A DNA stretch of 64,000 nucleotides, taken from assembly GCA_905221615.1 (NCBI GenBank), contig CAJNDT010000308.1:183220-247219 (forward strand), read 5' to 3'. Each line of letters starts with the position of its first letter. The stretch's first letter is position 1. Shown here in pieces: positions 12,349-32,898 of the stretch. The stretch comes from Symbiodinium sp. CCMP2592 (lineage: Eukaryota; Sar; Dinophyceae; Suessiales; Symbiodiniaceae). The position numbers and the translations under genes are program-made. Under the pieces are notes generated by a model, which worked only from the letters and a program-made list of their open reading frames with translations, ran no database searches and was not told the DNA's origin.

Positions 12349-12458
12349 CCCAGAGAGCCCAATACCCCTTAATTAAGGAATATGGCTTAAATTATAAGGG
12401 GGTTCATATTATGATTTAAGCCATATTCCTTAATTAAGGGGTATTGGGCTCTCTGGGG
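12349..12458. repeat. TIR element family F, copy 2 (intact)
   Basis: AGAGAGCCCAATACCCCTTA pairs inverted with TAAGGGGTATTGGGCTCTCT. A nested AATTAAGGAATATGGCTTAA and its inverse lie inside. The arms make a near-perfect hairpin. Confidence 0.9.
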
Positions 12459-13447
12459 GGGGTAAACCCCGTGCCAGCCCGGACATGGAGACTGAGGAGA
12501 CCGTGGAGCAACCGGGCTGCGAGATGTCGCAGGTTGTTGCCGTCTCTTTGCTCCACGAAGTAGTCCTCGCGTTTGCTCCTGGATGCCTGCTTTTCTGCAG
12601 GACCTGCAGGACAGGTGACATGGCAAATGCCGAGGAGGTCCTGCACATGAATACTTGACTCCTGCTAGTCCACCTGCGGCGGATGTGCGCGGTGGGAGGC
12701 GAGAGGGTTTGGAAGCTGTTTGGAGGTTGCTCCACTTGAGACTGTTGAAGTGGAGTCCTGCAATTAATGCAAATTTTCCAATACTTGCGCCAAGACCGAC
12801 GACCAGAAAAAGCTGGGCAAGCTTCCACAAATGACTCTGTGATGTCCTGTAGCTGAGCTGTGCCAGCTATGCACTGGCTATCACTGCATCTTCGAAGGTC
12901 AGCTGCCATCGTTCGTCACCGCAGCAGGACATTTTCTAGCGAAGGAGTGCAAACAAGCAATACAAGATTCGAACCAGCCGCGCAAAACAAATGTAGACGC
13001 AGCTGGACATGCAGCAGACTCCACAGAACACCAGAACTGCGTAGCCCTGCAGTCCATTCAGCAGGCCTGTTTGCTGTCGTGTCCAGGAGGCTTAGCGGCC
13101 GCTTCAGCGGTTAGCCTCTGCCAAAGGTCACCATCATTCAAAGTAGCCCCGGTCTGCAGGCACAGCCATGCGAGCCTCCAAATTTGCCGCATCACCTTTG
13201 GCCTTCGAGGACGACCCGGAGGACTCCATGTCATGGGCGGAGGATTCACTATTGTGCAAGAGAAGGAGAGTTAGTACCTGTGTCTTTGTGTCTGCATATA
13301 ATCATGTAGGTATGCATAAACCTTTCAGTTCTTTGTGTTGCATGTGTCGGCCATACATACATGCATGCGTGCATGTATACATGTCTTGCAGGCATACATG
13401 CATACATATGTATACATAGACAAATGGATAGACAAATACATTATATT

Positions 13448-13602: not shown

Positions 13603-13685
13603 GATGGGAGTTTCCGAAAATTAGGGCTACCTGATTTTAGGATCCTACTATTATGGGTACTACATTAGGGTCCCCTATTGAGATT
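13603..13685. repeat. TIR element family D, copy 2 (right end lost)
   Basis: GGGAGTTTCCGAAAATTAGG start, internal AGGATCCTACTATTATGG and ACATTAGGGTCCCCTATT. Confidence 0.75.
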
Positions 13686-13953
13686 TCTTGCGCAGGCGGA
13701 AGCGGTCACTTGGCCGCACCCAGAAGCCTACGCCCTAAGACTGGCACCATCCGACCGAATCAAGTATACCTCTTGTATTGTATCATTTCAAGTGACGTCA
13801 CAGTCTATACCACACTAGATCATAATTTTAACGCTACGCCGCCCGCCTCGGCTGTGTAGCGGCAGGGCGAGGGGGCAGTCGATGTTTTTTTATGCTAGGG
13901 CGGCCTGTCAAACCCCAACCTTTACACGGTTGTTGATACGAAGTGCGAGGAGA

Positions 13954-13993: not shown

Positions 13994-14241
13994 TGATTCC
14001 GTAAACCTCTAAAGGGGTAGCTCTAACAGGTACCTACAGCAATGGCTGCATGCTCATACATATACATTCCGCTGCCCATTGGCTCACAGTGGTTTTACCA
14101 TATTGAGACAAGACAAGCTCTCCTTGCGTAGCAAGACAAAACAACTACTGTCCGTGTGCAGGGCGCTGCCCTTTGATCCTTAGGGAATAAACTGGTCATA
14201 CACCTCCTAACAAGGAGCATTTCCTTGTGGGTGTATCGGCA
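13994..14241 (+). repeat. 5' LTR
   Basis: 248 bp, TG...CA, identical to the 3' LTR. It should hold the promoter and the RNA start. A palindromic pair CAAGGAGCATTTCCTTG lies near its end (about 14210-14227). No clear TATA box could be assigned. Confidence 0.95.
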
Positions 14242-14249
14242 CAGTTTTC

Positions 14250-14263
14250 TGGTAGCGGAGCCC
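14250..14263 (+). other. Primer binding site
   Basis: TGGTAGCGGAGCCC, eight bases after the LTR. It would pair with a tRNA ending GGGCTCCGCTACCA. The core resembles the initiator Met-tRNA acceptor used by many copia elements (TGGTA-C-GAGC pattern). Confidence 0.7.
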
Positions 14264-14345
14264 GGAAAGGGCCGCCCGCCTCCTAAAGTCCGCTACAGCG
14301 GTCGGCCTCGCCGAACGCTTAACCAAGCGGATAAGAGGCAGCACA

Positions 14346-16946
14346 ATGTCGAGCTCGCATAGCGAAGCCGACGGCAGTTCCCAATCCTCCGGGGGATATG
14401 AGAACGAAGAGACCTCCCAAGGTCCAGCCACTTATGTCGCACAGTCATATGCAACATCTGACCGCATGCTTGCATCATTAGGCATAACGCCCAAGATCGC
14501 GCCTGCCTATGATGGCACCACCTCGTGGTTTGAGTATGAACAGTTGATTGACGACTGGTGCGACATAACAACGCTGGATGACACCAAAAGAGGTCCGTCT
14601 CTCAAGACGAGGCTCTCCGGATTGGCCGCAGTACAAAAGGAATCACTGAACCGAGAAAGGCTTGCAGCCCCAGATGGAGTAGATTACTTCAAGAAGAAGA
14701 TGCGTCCATTTTTCGTGAAAGGAGAACAGTACGTTTTCCTGTGGCGTTTCCTCGGCCTATTCAAGGCATGGAAGGGCAACCAAGACTTTGTGACTTGGAT
14801 TGCCAAGTTTGAGATCGTGCTACAGCGCGTGAAAAACTCATGGATGGATCTCTTACCAGAGATAGCTCTGGAGGATGCCCATCCAGATTTCATGCAAGCT
14901 GTGCAGGCAGATCAAACCTTCTTGCGCCTACAGGATGCAACCGAGAGAGACACATACGCCGCACGTTTCTTCGAAACATGGAACAAGGAACGCCTTGATA
15001 ATCATCGAAGAGCGTTTCCTCTAAATGATAATCTCCTAGCTCTCCTCTTCCTAGTGCAGTCCGACCTAAATGAGATGCAACGTGAGAGGTTGGTAACAGC
15101 ATTGACCAACCAAGGTCACCGAATTGAGACCTACACGTACCCTGTGGTACGGCAGACCATGTTCGATCAGTTCTCAACGACCAGAACTGGTCTGCAGGAT
15201 CCCAACATTCGGCACTCTTCTCACAAGAAGGACCGCCATGGAAGGAGAGACCAACGCCGCAAACGCGGAGGTCGAAACTTCCTCATCCTCGATCAGGGTG
15301 AATACGATGGAGTCGATGGATTCTGGCTCCAAGACGAAGACACCCTTGAGGAAGGCTTTCTTGCCGCCGAGGATGAAGAAGCTGTCTTCTGGACAGTTGA
15401 TGACCATGAGGCCTTCGTTGCAAGGAGATTCAAAAAGGGAAGAAGACCAAGAATGCGTCCCGGATCACCGGGAAGAGCAAAGGGTGGCAAGCGAAAAGGA
15501 CGTGGCCGTTTTAGGTCATACCGCGGAAAAGGGAGAGCCAACCAGGCAGAACATGATCCAACTGATTCCAGCTATTTCGGTAAAGGTAAAGGAAAGGAAA
15601 AAGGAAAAGGTGGAAAAGGCAAAGGAAAAGGAAAGGACAAAGGAGATAAAGGAAGCTCCTTCAAGGGTACAAAGGCAAAAGGCAAAGGTAAGGATACAGC
15701 TAAGTCTGCCTCCTTACAAGGAGACCAAACTGGATCTCCACAGGCCTATGAAAGTTCCACCGCACCGAGCTGGGATTCATGGTATGAGGACAGTTATTAT
15801 ACTGACTCCAGTTGGAATTATGCCGCTTATGACGATCAAACGTCTTATACATACTATGCATCACAAGCCTCACGAAGAAAGACACGGAGAAAGAAGAGAA
15901 GAAATCAAGCAGGATCATCAGGTAGAGGCACAGATCCGAGCGCGCACCAAGAACCCGTGTACAACTCATCAGTGAGTTACGTGCCCCAGGTCTTTGAACC
16001 ATCCGAGGGGCAAGGTGTTGAAACTGCAACAGCGGTGTTTCCGTTGCAGCACACCGTCCTATCTGCTCTCACAGAGCGGATCAATCTTGATAAGAGCCCT
16101 ACCTTTGTCATACTTGACTCAGGTTGTACTAGGGCTATGGGTTCCCGCTATGCGGTGAATAGGCTTATCAAGGCCGTGAAGCAACGTGCCCCAGGCATGA
16201 TTGATTTCACTTTCTCACCTTCGAACACGAAGTTCTCTTTCGCAGATAGTGAAACAGCTCTTATCAAGGAGCGTGTAACTCTATGGTTCAACACAACTCC
16301 AAGAAGAGATACAACCATAGAAGTTCTGGATCAGGGGAGAGTTCCCATTTTGTTCTCCATCGAACAGATGAGGAATCTAAGAATGACCCTCGAGTGTAGT
16401 CCCACAGCTGACCTAGCAACGTGTGAAGCTTTCGGTTTGTATAAAACCCCTCTTCCGATTAGTACCAATAACCATTTGGTATTGGACCTTCTAGGCTTCA
16501 CTTCCACCAGGAAGTATCTCCCTAAATCAGGTACGTCGTTCAGTGCGACAGAGACTGCTCTAGGAGCTAGGAAGCCAAAGGAAGAAGGAAGATCTTATAC
16601 TAGGATCCCGGAAGGTCGCTGTCCAGCCTGCGCAGGACAGAAAAGGGCTCATACGTACCTCAAGGGTTGCGACAAGGCACCTGAGGGAGCAGCTGATCCA
16701 CCACCGAAGGGCATTCAGGTAAGAAGAAGCCTCTTCCATCTGATCCGGCAGAATCATCTGCCAAGAAACCCGATCCACCAGAACTATCTGGTGATGCTCC
16801 TGAGCCTTCCGAACCGCCGGAACCATCATCAGGCTCTAGAGACAAACCGGCAGAATCATCTGCACCGCACGAACCTCCAGAAGAAGAAAGACTTGAGGTT
16901 CCACCTGCGAAGACAAAGACTCCAAAGGGTCTTAAAAACCTTCTGA
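14346..16946 (+). CDS. gag: Gag-protease polyprotein of the giant copia element
   Basis: The ATG at 14346 is the first in frame after the leader. Residues about 60-270 form a helical Gag-like region with Trp-rich motifs. Residues about 295-320 and 370-430 are strongly basic, followed by a Gly/Lys repeat (KGKGKEKGKGGKGKGKGK) in place of a CCHC zinc knuckle, which may serve nucleic-acid binding. The retropepsin motif is clear: FVILDSGCT with the catalytic Asp at residue 591. A Cys motif (RCPACAGQKRAHTYLKGC) follows near residue 760. From about 16700 the codon sense moves to the next frame (16697-17359): the last 75 or so residues of this frame are His/Arg/Asn-rich nonsense, while the other frame is Pro/Glu/Ser-rich and leads into the integrase zinc domain. 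A -1 shift, an intron (CAG|GTAAGA at 16716) or a mutation could explain it. Confidence 0.9.
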   Translation: MSSSHSEADGSSQSSGGYENEETSQGPATYVAQSYATSDRMLASLGITPKIAPAYDGTTSWFEYEQLIDDWCDITTLDDTKRGPSLKTRLSGLAAVQKESLNRERLAAPDGVDYFKKKMRPFFVKGEQYVFLWRFLGLFKAWKGNQDFVTWIAKFEIVLQRVKNSWMDLLPEIALEDAHPDFMQAVQADQTFLRLQDATERDTYAARFFETWNKERLDNHRRAFPLNDNLLALLFLVQSDLNEMQRERLVTALTNQGHRIETYTYPVVRQTMFDQFSTTRTGLQDPNIRHSSHKKDRHGRRDQRRKRGGRNFLILDQGEYDGVDGFWLQDEDTLEEGFLAAEDEEAVFWTVDDHEAFVARRFKKGRRPRMRPGSPGRAKGGKRKGRGRFRSYRGKGRANQAEHDPTDSSYFGKGKGKEKGKGGKGKGKGKDKGDKGSSFKGTKAKGKGKDTAKSASLQGDQTGSPQAYESSTAPSWDSWYEDSYYTDSSWNYAAYDDQTSYTYYASQASRRKTRRKKRRNQAGSSGRGTDPSAHQEPVYNSSVSYVPQVFEPSEGQGVETATAVFPLQHTVLSALTERINLDKSPTFVILDSGCTRAMGSRYAVNRLIKAVKQRAPGMIDFTFSPSNTKFSFADSETALIKERVTLWFNTTPRRDTTIEVLDQGRVPILFSIEQMRNLRMTLECSPTADLATCEAFGLYKTPLPISTNNHLVLDLLGFTSTRKYLPKSGTSFSATETALGARKPKEEGRSYTRIPEGRCPACAGQKRAHTYLKGCDKAPEGAADPPPKGIQVRRSLFHLIRQNHLPRNPIHQNYLVMLLSLPNRRNHHQALETNRQNHLHRTNLQKKKDLRFHLRRQRLQRVLKTF

Positions 16947-17359
16947 AGAAAACCCGCAAATATGCGGTCAAACCTCCTGTTGAAGAGAAGTCTACAGTCC
17001 CAGGAGCTGATGACGGGACGGAGGTAAGACCACTTGAGTCAAGAGAATACCCGGCTCCTGGTACAGACTCACCTACAGGTGAAGAGACTGTCGCAGAACC
17101 ATCGCCATCTCTTCCCATTGCTCTTCGCAGGATTCATGAGAAGCTTAAGGACCCTGTAGAACTCTATAAGCTTCACCTTAAGCACCGTCATATGAGTACG
17201 GATCAGTTCAAGCGACGCACGAAAGCCTTACAGATCCCAAAGGAGATATATCAGCTATATGACCAACTGGTCAAAAAGTGTTCAGCCTGTCAGGAAAACG
17301 TGAGAGCTCCTTCAGAGAGATCAGATCACGGTGAGCTTCCAATTCGGCGAGTCGCTTAA
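16697..17359 (+). pseudogene. Link between protease and integrase in a shifted frame, with the pre-integrase zinc motif
   Basis: This frame is open from 16697 to a TAA at 17357-17359. It first encodes a Pro/Glu/Ser-rich linker, then a typical GAG-pre-integrase HHCC unit: HLKHRH, about 30 residues, then CSAC (roughly 17170-17290). It ends with a short SDHGELPIRR stretch whose Asp is the only candidate for the first integrase catalytic Asp. The segment normally found between the zinc unit and that Asp looks shortened. The pol frame opens at 17335, so the two overlap by 25 bases, again with a -1 relation. No classic slippery heptamer was identified in either overlap. I therefore call this a broken or frameshifted part of the polyprotein rather than a gene of its own. 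Confidence 0.65.
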
Positions 17360-20300
17360 TATTTCTTATTCTCTATGACGGAGCAACAAACCTGTTGACT
17401 TCCGAAGTAGTCCAGGATAAAGAAGAGCATACTACAATGTCGATTATGAATGACTACTTTGAGAAATTTCAGATCAACCCAAAGGTTGTAGTTGGAGATC
17501 AAGCATTCATGACTCCAAAAATGGAGGCTTATTACAATCGGCAGAATATCAAGCCTGTAGCAACAGGACCTGGAACACCATGGCCCAACAGGGCCGAAGC
17601 TGCTGTAAGATTGCTGAAGCATCAGATTAAGATCATACTTCAGATCCTGAAGGATGGTGACCCGCAGTATAACGGAATCACCATGAAGTATGGCAACCTC
17701 GTTCGACAAGCATGTTTGGCAAGAAACTCTTCGATTACCTACGGAGGAGTTACTCCTTTAGAAATGGCCTTTGGTAGGCGTCCTCGAGATGTTATAACAC
17801 CAGAGAACGCTGATCCCAATCAGTTGACAGGTAATCCAACTGATACGGAAGTCACTGCGAGAGCCATTAAGGAGCTTGCCAACAGGGCTTACCAAGAGGC
17901 ACGCCAATCTGATGATCTGCGCAGAGATCTTGCGGCCAGACTGTCAATGACCGAAGGACCTTTCTCTTTGGGAGATAAGGTTTTCTACTGGTCAGAGGAT
18001 AAGTCTAAGATTGGATCAACTGGGTCCAAACATGGATCTTGGCTAAAAGGAAAGGTGATCTCCGAACTCGGAGGATCCATGGTAGGTGTGGATCTTGGAA
18101 CACGCATCGTCCGCGTTAATATCTCAAAACTGAGGAAAAATTATGACATAACATCTGATGTGGAGATTCCTCTCGCGCCTGATGAGGAAACTCTAACGTC
18201 AGAAGGTTCTGACCACGCAAGTTGCATGGTCACCTTTGATGCTTCCCTGCAGTCGACAGACCTAACGGTTCCGCATCAAGAGTGTCACTGGCAGGTCACC
18301 AGCACTGGGAAGATTGACTTCCTAGAACTCTACGGTGGATCTCCCCGTATGAGTCACAAGGCTGCCCTGTCAGGTCTGCGAGTAGGTCAGCCAGTCGACT
18401 TGCGTAGTGGTCTAGATCTTGAGCAACCGCAAGGTCGCTCCAATCTTCTTAGGATCATCAAGGAACAAGAACCTACTATTATTGTTATGTCACCCGATCA
18501 CTCTCAGTGGTCTAGCTGGTACTCACAGTGGAAGAAAGGCTCTGCCAAGAGACTTTCTGTTTTAAAATTCTGTGAATCGGTCGCAGACCACCAAATGAAG
18601 CTCGGACGTTACTTTGTTCTTGAGAACCCATACTACAGCAGGCTCTGGTCTTCACCAGAAGCAAAACGCCTGTTTTCCAACCGCAAGATCAGCTATGAGG
18701 TCTGTAACCTACAAGCCTATGGCATGAAAGATCCAAAAGGATACTATGAATCGAAATCCTCGATTTTCATGCACAACCTGCCACCGCAGGTTCTAACTCC
18801 TCTCCAGAGGCATTCTGCCAAAACGAAATCTCCAACATCTCCACCAGGAGACGAAAAGGGTATTCAAGGCTACGGTCTTAAAACGAAACTCGCACAAGTG
18901 TATCCTTATGAATTCTGTGAGACCTTTGCCTCGTGTTTGGCAAGATTCCTGAAGAGAGATGCATATGCATCTCATCTTTCTTTAGTCACAGACATGCTAG
19001 AATACTCTGGAGATGAATGCCTCCAGGGACTTTCGGAACTTCTTGACCAAGAGTATTCACTTTTGACAGCAAATCCTCTCAAGGATTCCAAACTCCTGCA
19101 AGATCCGAAAATCAGATCACTTGTTGCTAGAGTAAATTCCTTATCGAGTAAAACTGAATTACCATTGCATCATTCCAAACCATCACCGTCCCTTGATGCC
19201 TTGGTGTCAGACATTACTCGCCTTAGATCAAGACTCTTACCAGGGTCTGGTTTCGAACAGTGTACTCTATACAGAGGTACATTTGGAACAGTCAAAGCAC
19301 TCACCAGTGTAACTGATGGCGTTCTTGTCTTCTGGAACAAGAAGAAGCCCAATTCGACTATGACGTGTTGCTTGCCGCACCAGGTTTCCTGGAATAAAGT
19401 ACACCCATCAACCTTCTCGGGGGTGCTCTTCCAGATGACAGGCGGCAAGACTTCACCGTCCGTGCGAACACCGCCGGATGTTATCATGTCGGACGAAGAG
19501 GTTTCGCCGTCAGACCCGTCAGAACCCATGAGCACTAATCGCTCACGGATCACATCTGACGATGTCTCTATGCCGGAACCAGATCAGCCGATGCCTCCCG
19601 GCACGCCGCCGTCGCGTCCTCCTCCTCCCATACCTCCACCGCGACTACCGGCCGTTTCCTCCGATGAGCCCGTGGCTCCTGCTCGGGCTAAGCCTCGCGT
19701 GCATCCGCCTCCTCGCGTTCCGTCTCCTCGGCGTCTGGGGGGTGATGTGTCGCCAAGGTCTTCATCGGAAAGGAAAGTTTCGCCGCACAAACAGAAATCA
19801 CCTTCACAGGTGCCGACACCAAAACCTAAACCGAAGGCACATCCACAGGGACCCATTCTTCCGTTACAACAAGATGAAGAAGATTCTGAAGAAGAACTGG
19901 TCCCGGACGACCCCGGACAACCGTCCGCTCCTCCTCACACCTCTGGTTCACCAGAACCGGAGAGCGATGCCGAGTCAGAAGACACAAGGTATTACTCTGA
20001 TGAGGAAGGTGACCTGGTCGTAGATGAGAAGGACTGGATCCTTCTCACAGAAGAACAGAAACTGTGCAGTAACACAGGTTCTTTCTCCATGCCTCGGTAC
20101 ATGCATGGCGGACCCGTAGACATCAGAGAGGTAACATCAAGAGTGAGGTCAGACCGAACACGGTATAAACCCACCAAAAGGTTCCGATCTGACATCCGTG
20201 AAGAGTATGATCTTCTCACGGAAGAGGACAGGGCCTTATCTCTAAGTTCCCCCAGGAACTCAGCAAATTTGACCCAGAAGGCACAACGGAAGGAGGCAAC

Positions 20301-22179
20301 CGCCAAGGAAAAGCGTGAGATGAAGAAACAGTTTGATGAAGCGAAAGCAGCAGAATATCAGAGCTGGCTAGACAATGATGTCTTTGAGCTCGTCGATACA
20401 CGGAAACTCGGAAACATCCGAAATTATGTCACTGGTCGATGGGTCCTGACTCTAAAAAGAGATAAGGACGGAAACTTCCTTAAGTGCAAGGCCCGATGGG
20501 TCCTAAGAGGTTTCCAGGATCGACAAAAGGACATACAGCAAACTGATAGTCCTGCTGCGAGTCGCCCAGGTTTCCGCTTGGCGATTCAACTAGCAGCTAA
20601 CAAGCTGTGGAGACTGACACACATCGACCTAAAGACTGCTTTTCTGCAGGGTGAAGCCTATGATGAGTCGAGAGACATAATCTGTCAGATTCCTCCTGAA
20701 GCAGGTTATCCTCCCTACATTGCAGCGAGGATGAAGAAACCCGCTTATGGACTTAACGATGCACCTCGAAGATGGTGGAACATCGTTGATAAGGCACTCC
20801 TGTCTTACGGCCTGGTGCCAACCCGTGCGGATCGCTGTACATATGTTCTGTATGGTAAGAAGTCTGCAACAGCAGATGCTGAGCTCAAGAAGTCTCAGCC
20901 AAAGACCATGGAATCAGCGATTGACTATCTCCTAGATCCCATAGCAGGCAACAATGCCAAGGGTAGACAGGTACATGGAGTAGTCTGTTTACATGTAGAT
21001 GACCTGTGCATGGCCGGTGATGACACCTTTCGTAAGGCCGTGATTGAATCGATCAAAAAGGAGTTTGCAGTCGGTTCTGAAGACACGAACGATATTATGT
21101 TTGTAGGACAGAGATTAGTCTGGAAGGATGCTACAGCATCAGTGCCAGCACATATCTCAGTAAATCAGAACCTAGCTGTTGAAGCTCTAGAGGAAATTGT
21201 TTTTGATAAGAAGCTCAACAATGAGCAACAATGCACACCACAGCAGCACACTGCTTACAGAAGTGTTTTAGGACAGATCAACTGGCTACAAAGCCGGACT
21301 CAAGCTCACATCTGTTATCGCTTCAGTCGGTGTGCGAGTAAGGCTGCCAAGCCTACTATCGGTGATATTCGAGAATTGAACAAGCTTGTTAGGATTTTGA
21401 AGTCTACTGAAGTAGAACTGCGTTTTTGGCCGCTGAAAGGAAATCTCAGAATCCTCGGTTACCCTGATGCTTCCTACAGGAACAATGATGACAAATCATC
21501 TCAGAGAGCACATGTTATTTTCCTTGCTGAAGATCGAAATCCAAAGCTAAAGGGAATGAAACAATCAGCAGCAGCTGCTTCTTCCAAGAAGAACGATTTC
21601 TCTGAATCCTCTATTAAGGAAACATCCTCGAGAGGTAGCCTGGTGGATTATGAGTCTCACAAGATTACGACAACCACAATGTCCACAACAGTGGCAGAGC
21701 TTAACGCACTGATGCGTTGCTTTGGTACTTGCCTGTTCCTCAAGGGACTTTGGGCAGATCTCTCATCAGAGACCGTACCCATACATATCAGAACAGATGC
21801 GAACAATCTTGTGACAACAGCAGGCACGACACACCTTCCAGAGCAGAAGGAAACTCACCACCTCATTCAGATGCTTCGTAAGGAATCCAACTCTGGATCT
21901 TTAGATGACCTAGCTCATGTAAGCTCGAAGTACTGCCTAGCTGATGCATTAACAAAGCACTCGGCGCAACCTGATGAGCTTATCAAGGCTCTGGAAACAG
22001 GGAATTTACCAGAAACAGACATTCATCCACCCTTCCGTGAACTTCTTCAACATAAAGCTTTCACTGTTCGGTGGATCATAGACAATCTCAAGAATGCCGC
22101 CACAGCGGTAGCCTTCCTTGGAATTGATATCTCAACAGAGATTTACCGATTATTTTACTGCCAAGGAATATGGTGGTAG
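17335..22179 (+). CDS. pol: Pol: integrase, methyltransferase-like domain, reverse transcriptase, RNase H
   Basis: The frame is open from 17335 and has no good own start, so it must be reached from gag. Integrase core: YDGATNLLTS, then VVVGDQAF (Asp codon 17497) and NRAEAAVRLLK (Glu codon 17596), giving the second and third members of the D,D-E triad. A chromo-like C-terminal part with KGKVI...GSMVGVDLG follows near 18040-18110. At about 18310-18660 is a Rossmann-type methyltransferase-like domain (IDFLELYGGSPR, IVMSPDHSQW, YFVLENPYY). A Pro/Ser/acidic linker spans about 19440-20300. RT of the RVT_2 type follows: TGRWVLTLK, HIDLKTAFLQG and the catalytic box HVDDL (about 20992) instead of the usual YVDD. 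RNase H has all four acidic positions: GYPDASY, AELNAL, RTDANNL and LADALTK (21465-21960). RT and RNase H appear intact. Confidence 0.93.
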   Translation, partial: ASNSASRLIFLILYDGATNLLTSEVVQDKEEHTTMSIMNDYFEKFQINPKVVVGDQAFMTPKMEAYYNRQNIKPVATGPGTPWPNRAEAAVRLLKHQIKIILQILKDGDPQYNGITMKYGNLVRQACLARNSSITYGGVTPLEMAFGRRPRDVITPENADPNQLTGNPTDTEVTARAIKELANRAYQEARQSDDLRRDLAARLSMTEGPFSLGDKVFYWSEDKSKIGSTGSKHGSWLKGKVISELGGSMVGVDLGTRIVRVNISKLRKNYDITSDVEIPLAPDEETLTSEGSDHASCMVTFDASLQSTDLTVPHQECHWQVTSTGKIDFLELYGGSPRMSHKAALSGLRVGQPVDLRSGLDLEQPQGRSNLLRIIKEQEPTIIVMSPDHSQWSSWYSQWKKGSAKRLSVLKFCESVADHQMKLGRYFVLENPYYSRLWSSPEAKRLFSNRKISYEVCNLQAYGMKDPKGYYESKSSIFMHNLPPQVLTPLQRHSAKTKSPTSPPGDEKGIQGYGLKTKLAQVYPYEFCETFASCLARFLKRDAYASHLSLVTDMLEYSGDECLQGLSELLDQEYSLLTANPLKDSKLLQDPKIRSLVARVNSLSSKTELPLHHSKPSPSLDALVSDITRLRSRLLPGSGFEQCTLYRGTFGTVKALTSVTDGVLVFWNKKKPNSTMTCCLPHQVSWNKVHPSTFSGVLFQMTGGKTSPSVRTPPDVIMSDEEVSPSDPSEPMSTNRSRITSDDVSMPEPDQPMPPGTPPSRPPPPIPPPRLPAVSSDEPVAPARAKPRVHPPPRVPSPRRLGGDVSPRSSSERKVSPHKQKSPSQVPTPKPKPKAHPQGPILPLQQDEEDSEEELVPDDPGQPSAPPHTSGSPEPESDAESEDTRYYSDEEGDLVVDEKDWILLTEEQKLCSNTGSFSMPRYMHGGPVDIREVTSRVRSDRTRYKPTKRFRSDIREEYDLLTEEDRALSLSSPRNSANLTQKAQRKEATAKEKREMKKQFDEAKAAEYQSWLDNDVFELVDTRKLGNIRNYVTGRWVLTLKRDKDGNFLKCKARWVLRGFQDRQKDIQQTDSPAASRPGFRLAIQLAANKLWRLTHIDLKTAFLQGEAYDESRDIICQIPPEAGYPPYIAARMKKPAYGLNDAPRRWWNIVDKALLSYGLVPTRADRCTYVLYGKKSATADAELKKSQPKTMESAIDYLLDPIAGNNAKGRQVHGVVCLHVDDLCMAGDDTFRKAVIESIKKEFAVGSEDTNDIMFVGQRLVWKDATASVPAHISVNQNLAVEALEEIVFDKKLNNEQQCTPQQHTAYRSVLGQINWLQSRTQAHICYRFSRCASKAAKPTIGDIRELNKLVRILKSTEVELRFWPLKGNLRILGYPDASYRNNDDKSSQRAHVIFLAEDRNPKLKGMKQSAAAASSKKNDFSESSIKETSSRGSLVDYESHKITTTTMSTTVAELNALMRCFGTCLFLKGLWADLSSETVPIHIRTDANNLVTTAGTTHLPEQKETHHLIQMLRKESNSGSLDDLAHVSSKYCLADALTKHSAQPDELIKALETGNLPETDIHPPFRELLQHKAFTVRWIIDNLKNAATAVAFLGIDISTEIYRLFYCQGIWW
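18310..18660 (+). other. C5-methyltransferase-like domain inside Pol
   Basis: Three spaced motifs match the order in cytosine-5 methyltransferases: motif I-like FLELYGGSPR with a following GL-hydrophobic strand and an acidic VDL; motif IV-like IVMSPDHSQWSSW, where PC would be expected; and motif VI-like YFVLENPYY (ENV in the enzymes). The loss of the motif IV Cys argues against methyltransferase activity. The target-recognition and motif VIII-X parts were not identified. The fold assignment is inference from motifs. Confidence 0.5.
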
Positions 22180-22230
22180 TCTCGTTTGCTGGTAGCACAA
22201 CCATGTGCTGGATTTTCTATTTAGACTGTT

Positions 22231-22257
22231 TTCCGTCTAAAAGAAAATTTGTGTCTG
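22231..22257 (+). promoter_or_regulatory. Internal copy of the polypurine-tract region
   Basis: AAAAGAAAATTTGTGTCTG at 22239-22257 matches AAAAGAAAATTAGTGTCTG at 29593-29611 in 18 of 19 positions, and both are preceded by TTCCG. The internal copy lies 52 bases after the pol stop codon and before the first accessory frame. It could be a central polypurine tract or a signal for making a separate RNA. Confidence 0.5.
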
Positions 22258-22284
22258 CGAGCTGCGTTTTCATTAAGATCGGAC

Positions 22285-25200
22285 ATGTTCATGAGAATTA
22301 TATGTATCATCCGCAGCCGCTTTCAGCCTCGAGCCTTACAGCAATCAGCCTTTCGGGCTAAACAAGCTTTCCTGATCCTGTTTGGTCATTGTGCCGTAAT
22401 GAGCACACGATCAAACTTCCGTAGCCGTGATGGACACGCCCTACCCAGGGCAGTGCAGGCGTACCATGAGCGACATCCACACATGGATAGCTCGTACCCC
22501 GAGTCTCGTCGGGAAGCATCACGTCGAAACACCGAACAAGGTGGACACCGAATTCACAAACGTGAGAAAAATCATGAGCCTCAATTCATCATCATGAATC
22601 ACCAACAGGTGTTCAATCCGCATCCAAGAGATCTTGCTCAATTGATCTCACAATATGGCCATGCGAGTAGAGCAAGGCTCACTCTAAACTCCATACATGG
22701 AGTCAGGCTCTATGAAGGAGTCCTTCAAGGACCATGGGACAACAGTCCCCTTGTATACTGGGATAACAATGTCGGTAATCACGCTCGTGATCCACACCAG
22801 TTCTGTACGATGCTTGCACAACGCCTTCAGACAGGCCTCCCACTGGAGGTAGAACAATGTGTGAGCCTTGATGGATCCGGAGAATATGACTATTCCTCCT
22901 CAGTGCCAAAACTGGCAGATGTAACAGGTCTCTCACCAGAGATGTGCTTCCACATTCTTTCCAAGACCAACAGAGTCGGAAGGTGGTTGGCACACTCAAC
23001 AAGACACCTTCAGAACCAGCGCACAGATCTCTTTGCTGGCCAACACAATTATCTTCTGGACATGTTCAAGTTGGCCGATGCAGAGCTCGCACAGTATACA
23101 CCACAAGAGATCGCGCTTGGTGTCCTCCTCAACACTAAGTCTAGGTTTGTGGTCACCATGGTTTATAACAAAGATGGCAAGGCCGAAACCACAGATGCCG
23201 CCGTTAACAGCCCACCGGATGCAAATGTGTTGACCATGAGCAAGATTTTCCTTTCGTCAGTGGGAGGACACGGTTCACGACGAACTCTACCAAGAGCTGA
23301 AGAACCAGATCCTGAAGAAGAGAGACCAAGGTCACACATGACCATCTCAGACTTCATGGCAACGGGGAGCAATCCTGTGCAGTCCCATGCACAGCGTCTC
23401 TCCACTAACGCGCCAAGGCCCGTCGGCATGGAGGATTTTGTTCGACAGAACAACCCTTGTTACATCATGCATGCCACGGACCTACAAGCACTATCCTCAA
23501 TCCTGAGGCACGGTCTGGTACCATCAAACCTCCTAGCGCAGGTGGTCACAGCACCAGATTTCCAAGCGCTTGTGAATGAAAACAGTCGTTCCAACAGGGA
23601 CACTGTTCAGTTCTCGACGCTAAACCTGGCGAATCCTAATCCGACCATGTTGCGTGCCAACAAGGCACTGCTTCTGGTCTTCGATGCAAATAACGTAGTA
23701 AACGAAGTCACAAACCTGTGGCAGTCGCAAGTAGGGATGTTTGCTACACCAGATGTAGTGCATGCCCGTACTCTTAGCGCCGTATTCGCACCCTCCGAAA
23801 CACTCTGGTTATCATCGCAATACGATGAGCTCAAGAGCATCGGACCATGGTGGGCAGACCATTGCTCCGAACAGATGCCGTCAGCGACTTACGAGTCGAA
23901 GAAATGGTGCGCAAATTACGGCCGAGAAATCGAATCGGCACTTCGAAAAGTGGCAAGGCGAAATCTGCCACCAGAGCCTCCCAAGGCTAGATCTTCTCAC
24001 AAGAAGTCTTTTTCTCTGCCACAGACAGAGGCTGACACAGCTCCAAACCTGGAGCAAACCGCTTCTGCAGGTGAGGTACCTCCGAAAACGGAGACTACTG
24101 CAAAGGAGATCCATCCGAGATCCAAGCTCGCCCGGCAGGCCGAGGCTGACAAGGATCCGGACAGTCTTATGGGACAGCTCTGGAACTCCGACGGCACCAG
24201 AAGCGCCACCGAAGTTCTTAAGATAACGACAGGTCACAAACCTCCAGAACCTGTTCAGGATACTTCCGCCAACGTAGTTCCTCCCAAGGAAGAATCTTCT
24301 GGAACAGAGACGGAACCTGAGGAACCGGATCCTAACCAGGATCGTGACGAAGAATCAGACGATGAATCGGCATCAAGTGAAAAGAGCTCAAAATCTTCGT
24401 CATCCTCAGAACTCCGAGTTGATGTTAATCCGTCTCACAAGACGAACTCTGCACCTGCAGCGTCGGAGGAAAAGAAAGAATCTCCCACGGAAGAGATCAC
24501 AGAGAAACTTAAGGAGGTCAAACTTGACCAACCAAAGCCTGAAGCAGAATATGTTCAGAGTTCAGACGAAGAGCCACAGAAACCAAAATCTCCTAAAAAG
24601 GAGAAGGAGAAATTCCTAGTTCTCTTCGATCCTGAAACAGAAAGTTATTATCGAGTCAACAGAAGCAAGCTCAACCTCGAATACGAGGAACCTGCTGATG
24701 AGGAAGATCTCGTAAGAGAACATGAGCGCATCAGCGCTCGACTTCGAGAAAATCGCAAGCACCGAATCTCGAAGTCATCGTCTAACCCGGCTATGCAACA
24801 GGAAATGAAAGAGAGAATCTGGGTTAGTCGATGGAATCGAAAAATCCGAAGTCCACTCATGATCAAGGATTCTGAGGCTCCTGACGAAGAGGAGTGGGAC
24901 AGACCCAGAGATCCGGCATCTTCCTCCTCTGAACCTCCTACCAAGGAGAGATTTGTAGGAGTACGCAGGACAGCCATGAGTCTTAACCAAAGGATACGGC
25001 TGATGACACGACCAGATAATCCTCTCTGCGATCTTTGCAATCAGCCTACAGGCTATTTTTGCTATTCCTGTGGTACGATTGTATGTGCAGACTGTCGACT
25101 TACCCCACAGGGTAAACAACAGATGTGCGAGTGCGTCTTGCCAATCGATTGCCTCGAGACCTCTAAAGTGTCAGCAGGAATGACATCAGAAGAGCGTCAG

Positions 25201-25293
25201 TTTTTATACGAGGCCATCCTCACACCTGAGGACGTAGATTTGGCAGTCCAGAAAATCAACATGTACTGTGACCACGCAAGGAATTGTTCATGA
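22285..25293 (+). CDS. Accessory ORF3: KptA/ART-like segment and C-terminal zinc finger
   Basis: The frame has no stop for 1,000 codons. ATG codons at 22285 and 22399 are possible starts; the second begins the more typical hydrophilic protein. A helical N-terminal half (to about 23300) is unrecognised. At about 23458-23790 the sequence reads CYIMHATDLQALSSILRHGL, then a KALLLVFDAN strand and GMFATPDVVHA. This order (H-x-T/S, a helix ending in HGL, a hydrophobic VFD strand, then F-x-T-P) is the pattern of the C-terminal lobe of RNA 2'-phosphotransferase/ADP-ribosyltransferase folds. A long acidic Ser/Glu/Lys-rich region follows. Near the end (25026-25130) are C-x2-C, C-x2-C, C-x2-C and C-x-C motifs (CDLCNQPTGYFCYSCG), a cross-brace-type zinc site. 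The stop TGA overlaps the next ATG. Enzyme activity is not shown. Confidence 0.85.
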   Translation: MFMRIICIIRSRFQPRALQQSAFRAKQAFLILFGHCAVMSTRSNFRSRDGHALPRAVQAYHERHPHMDSSYPESRREASRRNTEQGGHRIHKREKNHEPQFIIMNHQQVFNPHPRDLAQLISQYGHASRARLTLNSIHGVRLYEGVLQGPWDNSPLVYWDNNVGNHARDPHQFCTMLAQRLQTGLPLEVEQCVSLDGSGEYDYSSSVPKLADVTGLSPEMCFHILSKTNRVGRWLAHSTRHLQNQRTDLFAGQHNYLLDMFKLADAELAQYTPQEIALGVLLNTKSRFVVTMVYNKDGKAETTDAAVNSPPDANVLTMSKIFLSSVGGHGSRRTLPRAEEPDPEEERPRSHMTISDFMATGSNPVQSHAQRLSTNAPRPVGMEDFVRQNNPCYIMHATDLQALSSILRHGLVPSNLLAQVVTAPDFQALVNENSRSNRDTVQFSTLNLANPNPTMLRANKALLLVFDANNVVNEVTNLWQSQVGMFATPDVVHARTLSAVFAPSETLWLSSQYDELKSIGPWWADHCSEQMPSATYESKKWCANYGREIESALRKVARRNLPPEPPKARSSHKKSFSLPQTEADTAPNLEQTASAGEVPPKTETTAKEIHPRSKLARQAEADKDPDSLMGQLWNSDGTRSATEVLKITTGHKPPEPVQDTSANVVPPKEESSGTETEPEEPDPNQDRDEESDDESASSEKSSKSSSSSELRVDVNPSHKTNSAPAASEEKKESPTEEITEKLKEVKLDQPKPEAEYVQSSDEEPQKPKSPKKEKEKFLVLFDPETESYYRVNRSKLNLEYEEPADEEDLVREHERISARLRENRKHRISKSSSNPAMQQEMKERIWVSRWNRKIRSPLMIKDSEAPDEEEWDRPRDPASSSSEPPTKERFVGVRRTAMSLNQRIRLMTRPDNPLCDLCNQPTGYFCYSCGTIVCADCRLTPQGKQQMCECVLPIDCLETSKVSAGMTSEERQFLYEAILTPEDVDLAVQKINMYCDHARNCS

Positions 25294-25592
25294 GAGACCA
25301 TCCAGGCGTTGATCCGTGTAGCTTTGATGATATTAGGAATAATCCTCCTAATACTTACGCCAGCTCCACAGAGGCTCCAACCCTGGAGGAATACAAGAGC
25401 ATTAACAAGAGTCACATCAATATCAAGGACTCCAGAACAAGCCACCCGGCTTCTTTTCTCTCTCTTACTGGCTACGAAGACAAACTGGTGCTCGACGCAC
25501 ATTACGAGATAGTTCGTAATAGGATGGCCGGTGTTAACGAAAAGAGAGAACACATAGAGGGCTCAAACCCAGACAGCGTATCACTAAGCTAG
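25290..25592 (+). CDS. Accessory ORF4: small protein overlapping ORF3
   Basis: About 100 codons. The ATG at 25290 overlaps the ORF3 stop as ATGA, in the -1 frame. The protein is hydrophilic, with a CSFDDIRNNPPN start and LDAHYEIVRNRM near the end; I do not recognise it. It may be a separate protein made by reinitiation, or the C-terminal tail of ORF3 cut off by a one-base deletion, since the join could be read smoothly across the overlap. It ends at TAG 25590-25592, 20 bases before the next ATG. Confidence 0.6.
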   Translation: MRDHPGVDPCSFDDIRNNPPNTYASSTEAPTLEEYKSINKSHINIKDSRTSHPASFLSLTGYEDKLVLDAHYEIVRNRMAGVNEKREHIEGSNPDSVSLS

Positions 25593-25612
25593 TGGTATGC
25601 AACTGGGGAAAT

Positions 25613-27574
25613 ATGGATCGAGCGCCGGTGCCAGCAGGGAATCCCAAAAAGAAACTCAAACCTGAGAAGGGATTCGATTACCACCCTCTTATTGACATGT
25701 GCTTCAACAATTCAGCACATATTACCCTCGTACTCGAGGCAGGAGCACTTGCGTCAAAGTATTCGATCGCAACCATGCGAAAACATGAATACAGAGGGAT
25801 GCTAATTCATTCTCCTCCCAAGGAGCCCGAGGCACCCTCAATGTATATTGGAGTCAAGGGTGACCCAACAACAGACATCTCTCTCGTCCACCACTTTTAC
25901 CGTCACCGAACAATGAAGCCTAAGGCTGGTGGTCCCAAGAAGCGACTGTGGGCATGCCACGGTGCGGTATGCCGCCTCACCTTTGGGTACCACAGTACCA
26001 TCCCGGAGGCAAAAGAATGGGTCCACCCATATTCCGGCCAGAGGATGACGAGAGATGAGTTCATGAAGATTATCGGATATGACCCTCTCAAGGGTAAAAA
26101 TCCTGACAAGGATGGACCCACTGATGGCTCTTACCTCTCACCAGAGGCGTGTCTGACAATGTCGGACCTCGACCCTGCGCCGGTTCTCTGTGAATGGAAC
26201 GGCCATGTCGAGGGTGATGAGCCACCAGAGGAAGACTTTGAGTCATACGCAGAGATCTTCTCACAAGAAGCATCAAACGATCTTGACGAGATGTGGTGTA
26301 CAAAAGGGCCTTACAAGGTCATCACCATCGCGATCGTCCATTTCAACTCATACATGACTCATAAGGAAGAACAGAGGCGCGAACTGGTGAACGCGTTCCT
26401 CAACGAGGTTCTCCCTTTCAAACCGGATGTAATTGCGGGGGATCTCAATAATATTGCGTCGAGGCTCACCTTAAAAGGTGGAGACGTTCACCCGCGAAAC
26501 GGTTTGTTTTCTCTATACCTGGAGAAGAAACTTGCAGCATTCAACAGAATAGCAGGAAGGCACTCACAAGTGCGACACCTCTGCTTGAACAACTCTGACC
26601 AGCACAGACTGGCACGTGCAGATCGTCTACCGCCGGAACCGGCGAAGAAAGTTGCTGACCTTGACTGTATCAACAGTTATATCCTTGACTGGAGCAAAAC
26701 GCCGCACACGGCGTCACCTAGTCCAAGAGATGCTACACCTGCCGCCGAAAGAACATACTGGGAACGAATCTCAGATATGTGGCAGGACATGAACAAAAAC
26801 AGGGATATCGATATCCGTCTGTTTGTCTCAGTCAAGCAGTACTATTCAACTTTTTCTAACCTTGACCTATGGTTGAGTCCCTCTGACAAAGATTGGCACA
26901 GCCCTTTGGGCTTCACGATACAACCAATCCTTACAAAAGGGAAACACAACCGGTCAGATGCCCAGGTTCAGAAGATCGCTAACAAGCGACAGGCTTACAA
27001 GCAGCGTAATGCTGAATACTGGGATTACAAAGACTCATTTGTGTATTCATCCGGCAACAGCTGGTATGACAAACAGCAACCACAAGGTAGCTATCACAGA
27101 TATGGAAGATTCTGGGAAAGGCCACGGCCTGAACGTCCCAGCGAGCCTGAAGGCCCTCCTCCAAGAAGGAGCCAGGCATCATCGTCCTCTTCACAACAAG
27201 ATCTACCAAGATCAAGGTCCAGACCTCAAAGAACCAATATTGTTGACAAGCTCAACATGTCTTTAGAGGAACTGGACACACTTGAGGAACAACAAGAAGA
27301 AGAACACTCTCCAACAAAGAGTGACATCGAAGAACACGAAAGAGAAACATCAAACTTGATGTCTGCTCAGAGAGATGAAGAGGAACAAGAGGACGAATCC
27401 TCCAGCCGGAGGAGAAGAAGGAAGGCATCACGCCCACCGTCTGCTCCGAGCGGCAAGGCACTCAGAACAGCTGCCACAGCAGCGGGGTTGTCGGGCTGGT
27501 TCGGACACCGTAACCACGGTGGAGCGAACGCAGAGTCTATCAAGACTGATGAACCTTCACTTCCAACTCACTAA
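25613..27574 (+). CDS. Accessory ORF5: endonuclease/exonuclease/phosphatase-like protein
   Basis: ATG at 25613; about 653 codons. The N-terminal 300 residues show the landmarks of the EEP superfamily (AP endonuclease, DNase I and LINE endonuclease fold) in order: a NSAHITLVLEAG strand carrying a candidate metal-binding Glu, TIAIVHFNSYM, a helix, then PDVIAGDLNN with the D-x-N pair, and NNSDQHRLA about 60 residues later, close to the usual S-D-H motif but with an extra residue. Such a nuclease is normal in non-LTR elements, not in copia elements. The middle is unrecognised (Trp/Tyr-rich). The C-terminus is Ser/Arg-rich and acidic with RRRRRKASRP, possibly a nuclear-localising tail. The catalytic set is incomplete by eye, so activity is uncertain. 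Confidence 0.85.
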   Translation: MDRAPVPAGNPKKKLKPEKGFDYHPLIDMCFNNSAHITLVLEAGALASKYSIATMRKHEYRGMLIHSPPKEPEAPSMYIGVKGDPTTDISLVHHFYRHRTMKPKAGGPKKRLWACHGAVCRLTFGYHSTIPEAKEWVHPYSGQRMTRDEFMKIIGYDPLKGKNPDKDGPTDGSYLSPEACLTMSDLDPAPVLCEWNGHVEGDEPPEEDFESYAEIFSQEASNDLDEMWCTKGPYKVITIAIVHFNSYMTHKEEQRRELVNAFLNEVLPFKPDVIAGDLNNIASRLTLKGGDVHPRNGLFSLYLEKKLAAFNRIAGRHSQVRHLCLNNSDQHRLARADRLPPEPAKKVADLDCINSYILDWSKTPHTASPSPRDATPAAERTYWERISDMWQDMNKNRDIDIRLFVSVKQYYSTFSNLDLWLSPSDKDWHSPLGFTIQPILTKGKHNRSDAQVQKIANKRQAYKQRNAEYWDYKDSFVYSSGNSWYDKQQPQGSYHRYGRFWERPRPERPSEPEGPPPRRSQASSSSSQQDLPRSRSRPQRTNIVDKLNMSLEELDTLEEQQEEEHSPTKSDIEEHERETSNLMSAQRDEEEQEDESSSRRRRRKASRPPSAPSGKALRTAATAAGLSGWFGHRNHGGANAESIKTDEPSLPTH

Positions 27575-27630
27575 CCAGTGAGCAAGACTTCTCCGTCTTC
27601 AGCATCGCGTGGAATGTGTTTCTGCTGCTA

Positions 27631-29313
27631 ATGGGCCTACACTGGATGTGGAAGCAGTTCACCAGGGCTCCCATCAGATGTATGGACCGCCAACAATCAA
27701 ATGCAAAAGCAGCAGCGAAACGACCACCACCATTTCTCGAACCCGAGGATGAACCACAGACGCGTGAACCTTTAGGACCCAACAGGGTCAATTCTGGAGA
27801 AACAACGGATTTGCGACCTGTGTGGCACACTTCCCGAAGCGAAGTCTACCATCTTTCAGACAGCTGTTACCAGCTCAAGCAAGCAAAAGATGTTTCAAGG
27901 AAGGTGCTGTGTAAAACCTGCCTCCAGGCAGTACAAGTTGCGGAGATTCGCAGGAACGATCCTTTTCAAAGAGGTGATACACGACCACGTGGCACCGAAA
28001 GGGACATTGAACGGTTTCAGACCTATGACGATGCAAGTACTACTCCTCATATGAGGCAATTATTCAGTGATGCATTGCATTCACAAATGGCCGAAGAAGC
28101 CATGCAGATTACCTATACATCAATCCCGAAGGGATCCTTGGCAAGAGCCAGAGGTACATCTGCACTCGCAAGTGCCTCATCGTCGTCAGTGCCCAAGGCA
28201 ATGCCACCAGTGCCTAACAAGGCAAACATGTCACCTCCACCTAAGTCTCCTCCGCCAAAGGCGAAAGGAACAGTACCTTCAGATCCTCCGAGACCAAAAG
28301 GTCCTACCAGAAGAGGAGGTCAAAATCGGCGCATTCAACGAAAAGCAGCTAGAGAAGCCCATAACAGTGGACTCTGCAACCATGCAGACGCTGCACTTGG
28401 CGAAGCCAATCAAGGCCAGGCCATTAACACTATGTGCCGAAACATGGCAGTAAGACACGTCAGCTCTATCGATGCAACGGTAGAAGCAGCCGAGCAGTTT
28501 ACACAACGCGTGCAACAGCATGTAGAAACATATGATGAAGAGGAACCGTGGAGCACGGAGTTTCTACCAGTCGTGGAAGTCCTATTCAGGAACTTGAGCA
28601 GCGACGAAACAACTGTCATACATGACAATCATACGGCAACTATGCCTATTCAGAAATATCTCGACCTCCTCAGAATCGCACAATCATTGCGAAACTCTAT
28701 CCAGAGAGACAAGGAGGAAAGAAAGGATCATCTTGACACCATCCAAGATACTCTATCCAGAGTGGAAATCCTTCTAACAGCACTGAAGGACTCAAAAACA
28801 GTCTTCAATCAATTGGTCCATTCCTCACTAGAGATAGAGCGAAGACATAAAAACCTCAAAAATGTCCTTGAGACACTTTTTGACGACCAAAGCTCTGAGG
28901 AAGACCAGTCAGAATCTGACCATGAAGAAGTCCTAACTCCTTCTGCAGCACAGTACTGGAACAGCCTTCATGCCCACGCCTTATCTCCCTCAGGAGATGA
29001 AAGTGAAAGATCATGGGCGTCCTCAGACGGACAGCTTGAAAGAAGAAGGGCCGAACGGGCAAAGGCTAAGCAGCCACAACCGGCTAAAGCCGAGGCAACT
29101 CCAATCAGCTCACAAGCTGCACCAAAGGCCGAGCCAAAGGCGACTACATCCAACCATGGATATGAAACTGCAGACGCCGCCTTCACCAGGGCTGAGAACA
29201 GATTACTCGGAATCTTTTCAAGTTCCGAAGAAGATCACTCAGACCCGGATGAACCACATCCGAACGTCTATGCTCGAGCCTATGATCCAAACCTGGATCC
29301 GAATCTGAGATAA
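27631..29313 (+). CDS. Accessory ORF6: membrane segment, zinc site and coiled coil
   Basis: The frame is open from 27553 and overlaps the end of ORF5 in the -1 frame; the first ATG is at 27631. Just before and after that ATG the translation is hydrophobic (FSIAWNVFLLLMGLHWMW), so a membrane anchor would be complete only if translation starts upstream. At about 27817-27930 is VWHTSRSEVYHLSDSC, then LCKTC: the H-x4-C...C-x2-C pattern of a small zinc site common in nuclease and Ada-like proteins (YH-x-C-x3-L...PC-x2-C). Pro/Lys-rich and basic stretches follow (28150-28350). A long helical region with regular Leu/Ile spacing (about 28650-28880) is probably a coiled coil, followed by an acidic tail. 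Function unknown. Confidence 0.8.
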   Translation: MGLHWMWKQFTRAPIRCMDRQQSNAKAAAKRPPPFLEPEDEPQTREPLGPNRVNSGETTDLRPVWHTSRSEVYHLSDSCYQLKQAKDVSRKVLCKTCLQAVQVAEIRRNDPFQRGDTRPRGTERDIERFQTYDDASTTPHMRQLFSDALHSQMAEEAMQITYTSIPKGSLARARGTSALASASSSSVPKAMPPVPNKANMSPPPKSPPPKAKGTVPSDPPRPKGPTRRGGQNRRIQRKAAREAHNSGLCNHADAALGEANQGQAINTMCRNMAVRHVSSIDATVEAAEQFTQRVQQHVETYDEEEPWSTEFLPVVEVLFRNLSSDETTVIHDNHTATMPIQKYLDLLRIAQSLRNSIQRDKEERKDHLDTIQDTLSRVEILLTALKDSKTVFNQLVHSSLEIERRHKNLKNVLETLFDDQSSEEDQSESDHEEVLTPSAAQYWNSLHAHALSPSGDESERSWASSDGQLERRRAERAKAKQPQPAKAEATPISSQAAPKAEPKATTSNHGYETADAAFTRAENRLLGIFSSSEEDHSDPDEPHPNVYARAYDPNLDPNLR

Positions 29314-29592
29314 GAAAATTCTCAGAGTTTCACAACAGTGACTCACAAAGCTCTAACAAGAGCACAATGAAGGGCTGCATAATTCGGTAGAAGAACATTA
29401 CCAGACCTGATCTTGTACAGATGATCTCTCTGACCAACATGCATGAGTGTGTGCAAAAGGAGTGACCTCAACAGTGTACTTCAGTGCTATACCTAGCATA
29501 AACAATATGCTGTTTTTATCATGAGTCCAAACTCCGCAACTGTGACAGTGGGCATAATAGTATATGTGTGAATGTGCGGCCATGCTTCCGGT
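29314..29592. other. 3' untranslated part of the giant element
   Basis: No open frame of note between the ORF6 stop and the polypurine region. Confidence 0.7.
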
Positions 29593-29613
29593 AAAAGAAA
29601 ATTAGTGTCTGTT
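29593..29613 (+). promoter_or_regulatory. Polypurine tract before the 3' LTR
   Basis: AAAAGAAAA at 29593-29601, followed by TTAGTGTCTGTT and then the LTR. It is the likely plus-strand primer, although it lies 12 bases from the LTR rather than touching it. A near copy lies at 22239. Confidence 0.55.
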
Positions 29614-29861
29614 TGATTCCGTAAACCTCTAAAGGGGTAGCTCTAACAGGTACCTACAGCAATGGCTGCATGCTCATACATATACATTCCGCTGCCCATT
29701 GGCTCACAGTGGTTTTACCATATTGAGACAAGACAAGCTCTCCTTGCGTAGCAAGACAAAACAACTACTGTCCGTGTGCAGGGCGCTGCCCTTTGATCCT
29801 TAGGGAATAAACTGGTCATACACCTCCTAACAAGGAGCATTTCCTTGTGGGTGTATCGGCA
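29614..29861 (+). repeat. 3' LTR
   Basis: 248 bp, identical to the 5' LTR, TG...CA, followed by the GGGGG duplication at 29862-29866. Confidence 0.95.
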
Positions 29862-31014: not shown

Positions 31015-31360
31015 TCTCAGCCGGATCGTCCTATGTGTATGGCAGTGTCAGCAAATGAGGGCATCGTTGATTCCAAGAGCCCCCATCCCTGAACCCAAGC
31101 ACCCTGACATCTTAAACACTCGGCCCCCCAGGCGAAGAAAGGCATTGCCAAGAAAGCCCGAAGCCCCTTTAGTGCCCGAAGCCTCTTTGCCGAGTCCTCG
31201 CTGCTGGAGATCACTCAACAGCATGGAGCTCAGGTCTAGGGTTCAGTTCTTACGTGAAAACTCCACAAGTAGGCAACATAATGGCCCGATGCCCAGAACA
31301 GGCTACTTTTCTACAAATCTTTGGGGTCCAGGTGTGGTTTAGATTTCGGTTCACCCAGAG

Positions 31361-31460
31361 ACTCCAAAACCCCTTAATTAAGAAATATACCTTAAATTAT
31401 AATAGGAGCCCTATTATGATTTAAGGTATATTCCTTGATTAAGGGGTTTTGGAGGCTCTG
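31361..31460. repeat. TIR element family F, copy 3
   Basis: AGAGACTCCAAAACCCCTTA pairs inverted with TTAAGGGGTTTTGGAGGCTC. The interior GATTTAAGGTATATTCCTTG is shared with the other two copies. Confidence 0.85.
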
Positions 31461-31552
31461 GGCAGGCTTTCGAGTCTTGGGCTTTCGGGGTTTACAGGCC
31501 CGCTGGACCGAAGCCAAGAGATCTGAAAGGTTTGCTCCTGGACATCATACCT

Positions 31553-32837: not shown

Positions 32838-32898
<61 letters not shown>

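Follow-up and report, generated by a model that had tools for sequence, protein, structure and literature searches.

Elements of the Pseudoviridae, or Ty1/Copia retrotransposons, are described by the ICTV as 4 kb to >9 kb long with one to three ORFs (PMC8515867). The element described here is located in a 64,000-nucleotide stretch of Symbiodinium sp. CCMP2592 DNA (contig CAJNDT010000308.1, positions 183,220 to 247,219), the whole of which was analysed and is hereafter called the window. It has in common with the Pseudoviridae the LTRs, the protease–integrase–reverse transcriptase–RNase H order and a reverse transcriptase of the RVT_2 type. The differences are its length of 15,868 bp, which is past the usual 4 kb to >9 kb although not barred by that wording (PMC8515867), and a putative accessory polyprotein some 2,280 codons long.

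Sense coding between pol and the 3′ LTR is likewise found in Sireviruses and plant LTR elements with additional ORFs (PMC7264820, in part). As to the env-bearing, Sirevirus-like Copia elements of the same source (PMC7264820, in part), the element has one hydrophobic segment in the last of its three long accessory frames (ORF3, ORF4 and ORF5), none of which has an Env match in Pfam. It also differs from Sireviruses and plant LTR elements by its dinoflagellate relatives and by a much longer accessory protein. Ogre is a Gypsy element, and neither it nor Cyclops, Burro and the foamy-like fish endogenous retroviruses belong to Copia, unlike the element described here. They likewise exceed 10 kb, with the fish retroviruses reaching up to 17 kb, and contain extra ORFs or domains (PMC6431247, in part); the word "Copia" is absent from the main text of this review of giant transposons.

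Retrotransposons with methyltransferase or methyltransferase-like domains, which the element resembles in this respect, include SymbioLINE-Dnmt, SymbioDIRS-Dnmt3 and KnitGypsy-Dnmt3, two of the three being from Symbiodinium (PMC5890265, in part). These are LINE, DIRS and Gypsy elements, respectively, whereas the domain considered here is located in a Copia Pol, and Symbiodinium Copia elements were reported by De Mendoza et al. in 2018 to be without any DNMT domain (PMC5890265, in part). Heat-activated Copia elements of S. microadriaticum were described by Chen et al. in 2018, as cited in PMC11453091 (in part), so the giant Copia family may already be partly described there. Among the papers listed in a search of mainly open-access literature, none describes a comparable giant Copia element by title or abstract opening.

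Boundaries and gag-pol backbone

The LTRs of the element start with TG and end with CA and enclose an interior of 15,372 bp, about 95% of which is covered by the assigned coding spans, with plus-strand frames throughout (Table 1). The sequence-only reading had described a 15.9-kb Copia-type element of unusual size with identical 248-bp LTRs and extra frames on one strand, and all of this agrees with our results, the LTR borders being exactly those in Table 1, the strand being plus throughout and the Copia assignment following from the RVT_2 match and from the integrase lying ahead of the reverse transcriptase.

Table 1 Features of the element and their positions in the window
Feature	Position	Strand	Remarks
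5′ LTR	13994..14241	+	248 nt; TGATTCC...ATCGGCA
Candidate primer binding site	14250..14263	+	TGGTAGCGGAGCCC; 8 nt inside 5′ LTR
Gag-like region	14346..15980	+	ATG at 14346 is the first in frame; basic stretch rich in Gly and Lys; no match in Pfam
Protease region	15981..16706	+	ILDSG at 16110; 78% identity to P0012 residues 1-232
Integrase N-terminal region	16844..17344	+	HLKHRHM...CSACQ, in a shifted frame; without 15 P0012 residues near the end
Integrase core and next part	17350..18312	+	VVVGDQ at 17485, PWPNRAEAAVR at 17578
DNA-methyltransferase-like domain (putative)	18313..19014	+	FLELYGG, ENP; motif-IV-like position SPDHSQW, without cysteine
Reverse transcriptase	20374..20853	+	PF07727 RVT_2, E=3.5e-17
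RNase H motifs	21457..21813	+	YPDASY, TVAELNAL, IRTDANNLV; read by eye
Accessory part 1 (ORF3)	22483..25284	+	Aligned to P0011 from 22531 on (942 columns, 50% identity)
Tpt1/KptA-like stretch in ORF3	23416..23742	+	PF01885 E=0.11, weak, under cut-off
Zinc-finger-like Cys-rich stretch in ORF3	25015..25098	+	PF00643 B-box, 23.6 bits vs cut-off 24.1
Linker, third frame	25278..25586	+	61% identity to P0011 residues 913-1015
Accessory part 2 (ORF4)	25559..27565	+	61-66% identity to P0007, P0008 and P0011 in the aligned parts
Accessory part 3 (ORF5)	27568..29313	+	Relatives match the first quarter alone, to 28029
3′ LTR	29614..29861	+	248 nt; same sequence as 5′ LTR

With no differences over 248 bp, the divergence between the LTRs is at most 1.2% (95% upper bound), and the insertion is considered recent because the pair lacks any difference. 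The GGGGG found on each flank would suit the 5-bp target-site duplication characteristic of Ty1/Copia elements, but both flanks are G-rich, which makes it unprovable. The candidate primer binding site presumably resembles initiator tRNA-Met; the 64-kb window contains no tRNA genes to compare with it. The sequence AAAAGAAAA, checked as a polypurine tract, ends 12 nt short of the 3′ LTR and does not abut it.

The stop-to-stop frames on the plus strand of the interior are 896, 220, 1,614, 1,022, 678 and 586 aa long, while in 100 mononucleotide shuffles of the element the longest frame reached at most 250 aa (mean 164), which places all the frames except the 220-aa one far beyond chance. Beyond the element itself, tblastn with 16 proteins and blastn with the LTR and the element detected neither a second copy nor further fragments of it or of its LTR in the 64-kb window. 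Three pattern scans for DNA relatives in viral contigs matched 1, 82 and 31 stretches, and a scan of genome contigs, a set possibly lacking records near the Symbiodinium source genome, matched 116; none of the matches was confirmed.

RVT_2 is the sole significant Pfam match in gag-pol, with the protease, the integrase core and RNase H recognised by motif; the integrase motifs at 17485-17610 are upstream of the reverse transcriptase, which is the Copia order. The best relative, P0012 (an ENA record of 2,071 aa), shows 89% identity over 1,612 residues and carries protease through RNase H in a single protein. The pol stop codon is at 22177-22179.

Several other features were found in the window. 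A repeat of about 110 nt is present in three related copies (943-1037, 12348-12469 and 31354-31474), two of which are near-perfect hairpins with arms 98% and 92% complementary, flank the element and are perhaps foldback- or MITE-like. A 92-nt repeat starting with ATGGGAGTTTCCGAAAAT has three dispersed copies at 8579-8670, 13604-13695 and 56597-56688, and a repeat array at 32578-33505 has spacings in multiples of 3, with several frames open on both strands. Plus-strand frames outside the element include a single 509-aa open frame at 51643-53172 matching cytochrome P450 (PF00067, E=9e-20), a 286-aa frame at 57447-58307 with a RING finger at its end (PF13639, E=1.6e-10), and a 188-aa frame at 41538-42104 that weakly matches HNH endonuclease (PF13391, 19.5 bits vs 21) and adjoins a 250-aa frame at 40785-41537.

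The insert between integrase and reverse transcriptase

An insert of about 235 residues sits between integrase and reverse transcriptase, and six members were compared, namely the window copy and P0012-P0016, of which P0016 is incomplete. Four PHROG families match the insert at E<=1, three of them DNA methyltransferases and one without function: phrog_2882 (DNA methyltransferase) matches all six members with a best E of 0.01, and phrog_757 (DNA methyltransferase) matches four with a best E of 2.6e-6. The relatives reach E values of 2.6e-6 and 5.3e-5 against methyltransferase families, while the window copy itself matches them weakly (E 0.081 and 0.093). When the profile of the insert was scored against dcm and six phage methyltransferases, the result of 24.8 was not equalled by any of 100 column shuffles, although the top shuffle came close at 24.5.

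The classic motif IV of cytosine methyltransferases is PC. At the corresponding stretch, the window copy and P0012 have SPDHSQW, with no catalytic cysteine; in the other four of the six members, which are more distant relatives, the aligned position is occupied by cysteine, within PxC or VEC rather than PC. The insert appears to resemble a methyltransferase, a very divergent one for which C5-cytosine specificity is not implied, and its divergence and the missing motif-IV cysteine in the window copy and P0012 set it apart from the DNMT-bearing retrotransposons.

That the insert does not derive from a methyltransferase at all is rather unlikely in our judgment, given that three of the four PHROG families are DNA methyltransferases and that no shuffle attained the cytosine-methyltransferase score. 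An origin other than from a methyltransferase would nevertheless agree with the weak PHROG matches of the window copy, with the absence of Pfam hits at E<=1 in all six members, with the lack of a credible PDB match (the insert alone matched no PDB sequence), and with the control in which the score of the same profile against exonuclease III was equalled by 2 of 100 shuffles, which weakens the methyltransferase profile test. One PDB match to the insert profile (E=0.96) was judged to be due to chance. Since Pfam finds no DNMT in any of the six members, a Pfam-based search would miss the methyltransferase-like domain suggested here.

The accessory region downstream of RNase H

About 7 kb of same-strand coding lies beyond RNase H, consisting of three long frames, 22225-25293 (ORF3), 25538-27574 (ORF4) and 27553-29313 (ORF5), and a short linker frame. 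The candidate ATGs of ORF3 are at 22285, 22399 and 22483, the start of P0011 being near the third. The search with ORF3, in which the best 7,999 candidates were scored, gave one related protein, P0011, and the search with ORF4 gave four, P0007-P0010, with 62-73% identity; P0008 and P0010 are named as Symbiodinium microadriaticum and P0009 as Symbiodinium sp. KB8. The relatives of the accessory region show 50-73% identity and the same order of parts.

P0011 (1,477 aa) contains ORF3, the linker and ORF4 in one protein, with 66% identity in the ORF4 part, and in P0007 ORF4 runs on into the start of ORF5. No single relative spans ORF3 to ORF5, as the match to P0011 fades near the end of the ORF4 part and that to P0007 soon after the start of ORF5; past 28029, no relative of ORF5 was found. 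P0008 contains pieces of reverse transcriptase, ORF3, ORF4 and ORF5 in this order (35-88% identical to the window), and in P0010 pieces of gag, pol, ORF3 and ORF4 come after those of the linker, ORF4 and ORF5 (39-88%), as if the gene model crossed two neighbouring copies. The continuity of frames in these relatives is that of protein records, which by their nature contain no stops and whose gene models may skip stops or segments through splicing; P0008, P0009 and P0010 look like spliced gene models. Because P0011 and P0007 join the parts into single proteins, the separate frames of the window would be parts of one protein, and ORF3-5 are best read as a single accessory polyprotein, some 2,280 codons long, which is broken in the window copy. 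The sequence-only reading had counted four extra frames, large and intact; the extra coding is indeed present, but as three long frames and a linker which, judging by the relatives, would form one long polyprotein and which are frame-broken here. No element without the extra frames was met among the protein matches, which, as records without genomic context, would not reveal one.

As P0008 and P0010 hold pieces of pol and ORF3-5 in order, the accessory region appears to belong to the element, its association with pol predating the insertion in the window. For this reason, and since the codon usage of ORF3-5 is similar to that of pol, it seems improbable that an ordinary Copia element took up a gene of the host, or some other mobile element, between its LTRs in a single event, even though the extra region is without Gag-Pol domains in Pfam and ORF capture downstream of pol is known among LTR elements (PMC6431247, in part). 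The correlations of codon usage with pol are 0.69 for ORF3, 0.60 for ORF4 and 0.59 for ORF5 in frame, compared to 0.13-0.47 off frame.

When selection-free mutation of the window frames was simulated down to the observed amino-acid identity in 200 runs each, ORF3 acquired 23.4 stops on average, with at least 11 in 200/200 runs, and ORF4 acquired 9.2 with a minimum of 2, while P0011 has none in either part, being a protein record and open by construction. Because the neutral simulation yields stops that are absent from P0011, the comparison argues for past selection on the accessory frames in the source lineage. Selection on the extra proteins in the source element had been proposed from the sequence alone and gains support from this simulation and from the conservation in other proteins of the group.

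Neither Pfam nor NCBIfam gives ORF3-5 a match past its curated cut-offs, and no PHROG match falls under E=0.1; the best sub-cut-off matches are B-box (6e-5), ANCHR-like B-box (0.011), Med9 in ORF5 (0.017) and KptA (0.11). ORF4 contains, as read by eye, VVCNWGN (25592), LVLEA (25727), VHFNS (26336), GDLNN (26438) and DWHSPL (26891), an order which we liken to that of endonuclease/exonuclease/phosphatase (EEP) enzymes. By motif alone ORF4 resembles these enzymes; it has no EEP match in Pfam at E up to 1 and none among PDB sequences, and the score of its profile against six exonuclease III proteins was equalled by 2 of 100 column shuffles. ORF5 includes a hydrophobic segment at 27589-27645 (Kyte-Doolittle 1.56 over 19 residues) and a Cys/His cluster at 27823-27921. 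The AlphaFold models of ORF3 and ORF4, with mean pLDDT of 30.6 and 32.5, are unusable. With low confidence, the accessory polyprotein might serve replication or host interaction, with ORF4 holding an EEP-like nuclease module and ORF5 a module with hydrophobic and Cys/His parts. The KptA (RNA 2′-phosphotransferase) assignment in ORF3 was rejected as unproven, with 12.9 bits vs 26 and no match listed for the homologue P0011.

Integrity of the window copy and the proposed source element

Compared to its relatives, the window copy has five frame changes and lacks 15 integrase residues. Two of the changes are in gag-pol relative to P0012, one around 16.7-16.8 kb and one close to 17.35 kb, with the 15-residue gap between them in integrase, and the other three are in the accessory region; all five have the same sense, with frames 3-2-1 and then 1-3-2-1. 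Gag-pol, like the accessory region, is thus not intact, and the window copy is probably not autonomous and needs helpers, unless the sequence is wrong.

The latter case, that of a copy intact in the genome whose five changes stem from errors of sequencing or assembly, has a considerable chance, somewhat short of even. Changes of one sense are expected from single-base losses in long reads, and identical LTRs leave little time for decay; on the other hand, the shared sense of all five is weak evidence, with p ~0.06 by coin toss, and the 15-residue gap in integrase is not a single-base error. Programmed ribosomal frameshifts are very improbable as the cause: some of the changes are close to module borders, but two of them enclose one short linker, and P0011 and P0007 are continuous over the ORF3-4 and ORF4-5 borders, as is P0012 over both breaks in pol, though splicing is possible in these records.

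We give a probability of roughly 0.7 to the reading that the locus holds a recently inserted member of a giant Ty1/Copia lineage from dinoflagellates related to Symbiodinium, and that its source element codes for two very long polyproteins. The first, of about 2,610 codons when counted on the window, would consist of Gag, protease, integrase, the methyltransferase-like domain, reverse transcriptase and RNase H, and the second, of about 2,280 codons, of ORF3, the linker, ORF4 and ORF5. From what is known of the family, transcription would run from LTR to LTR, a tRNA would prime reverse transcription inside a Gag particle, and the integrase would carry out integration. With the pol stop codon ahead of it, the accessory polyprotein would need a translation start of its own; the most plausible carrier is a message that is spliced, or trans-spliced to a spliced leader. 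In a search for a spliced-leader relic with the dinoflagellate spliced-leader sequence, the 15- and 12-base pieces had no match in the window and the 8-base piece had seven, none within the element. More tentatively, and with somewhat less than even odds, the lineage may have captured a DNA-methyltransferase domain in Pol, now non-catalytic and perhaps DNA-binding in this branch, and have evolved a selectively maintained second giant polyprotein with a nuclease-like module, which would amount to virus-like complexity.

If real, a methyltransferase-like domain in the Pol of a dinoflagellate Copia element would qualify the earlier report that Copia elements of Symbiodinium have no DNMT (PMC5890265, in part). 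A Copia element with almost half of its coding accessory, common to Symbiodinium relatives, would show that Copia can outgrow its usual size, and it would provide a system for asking what the accessory proteins of retroelements do.
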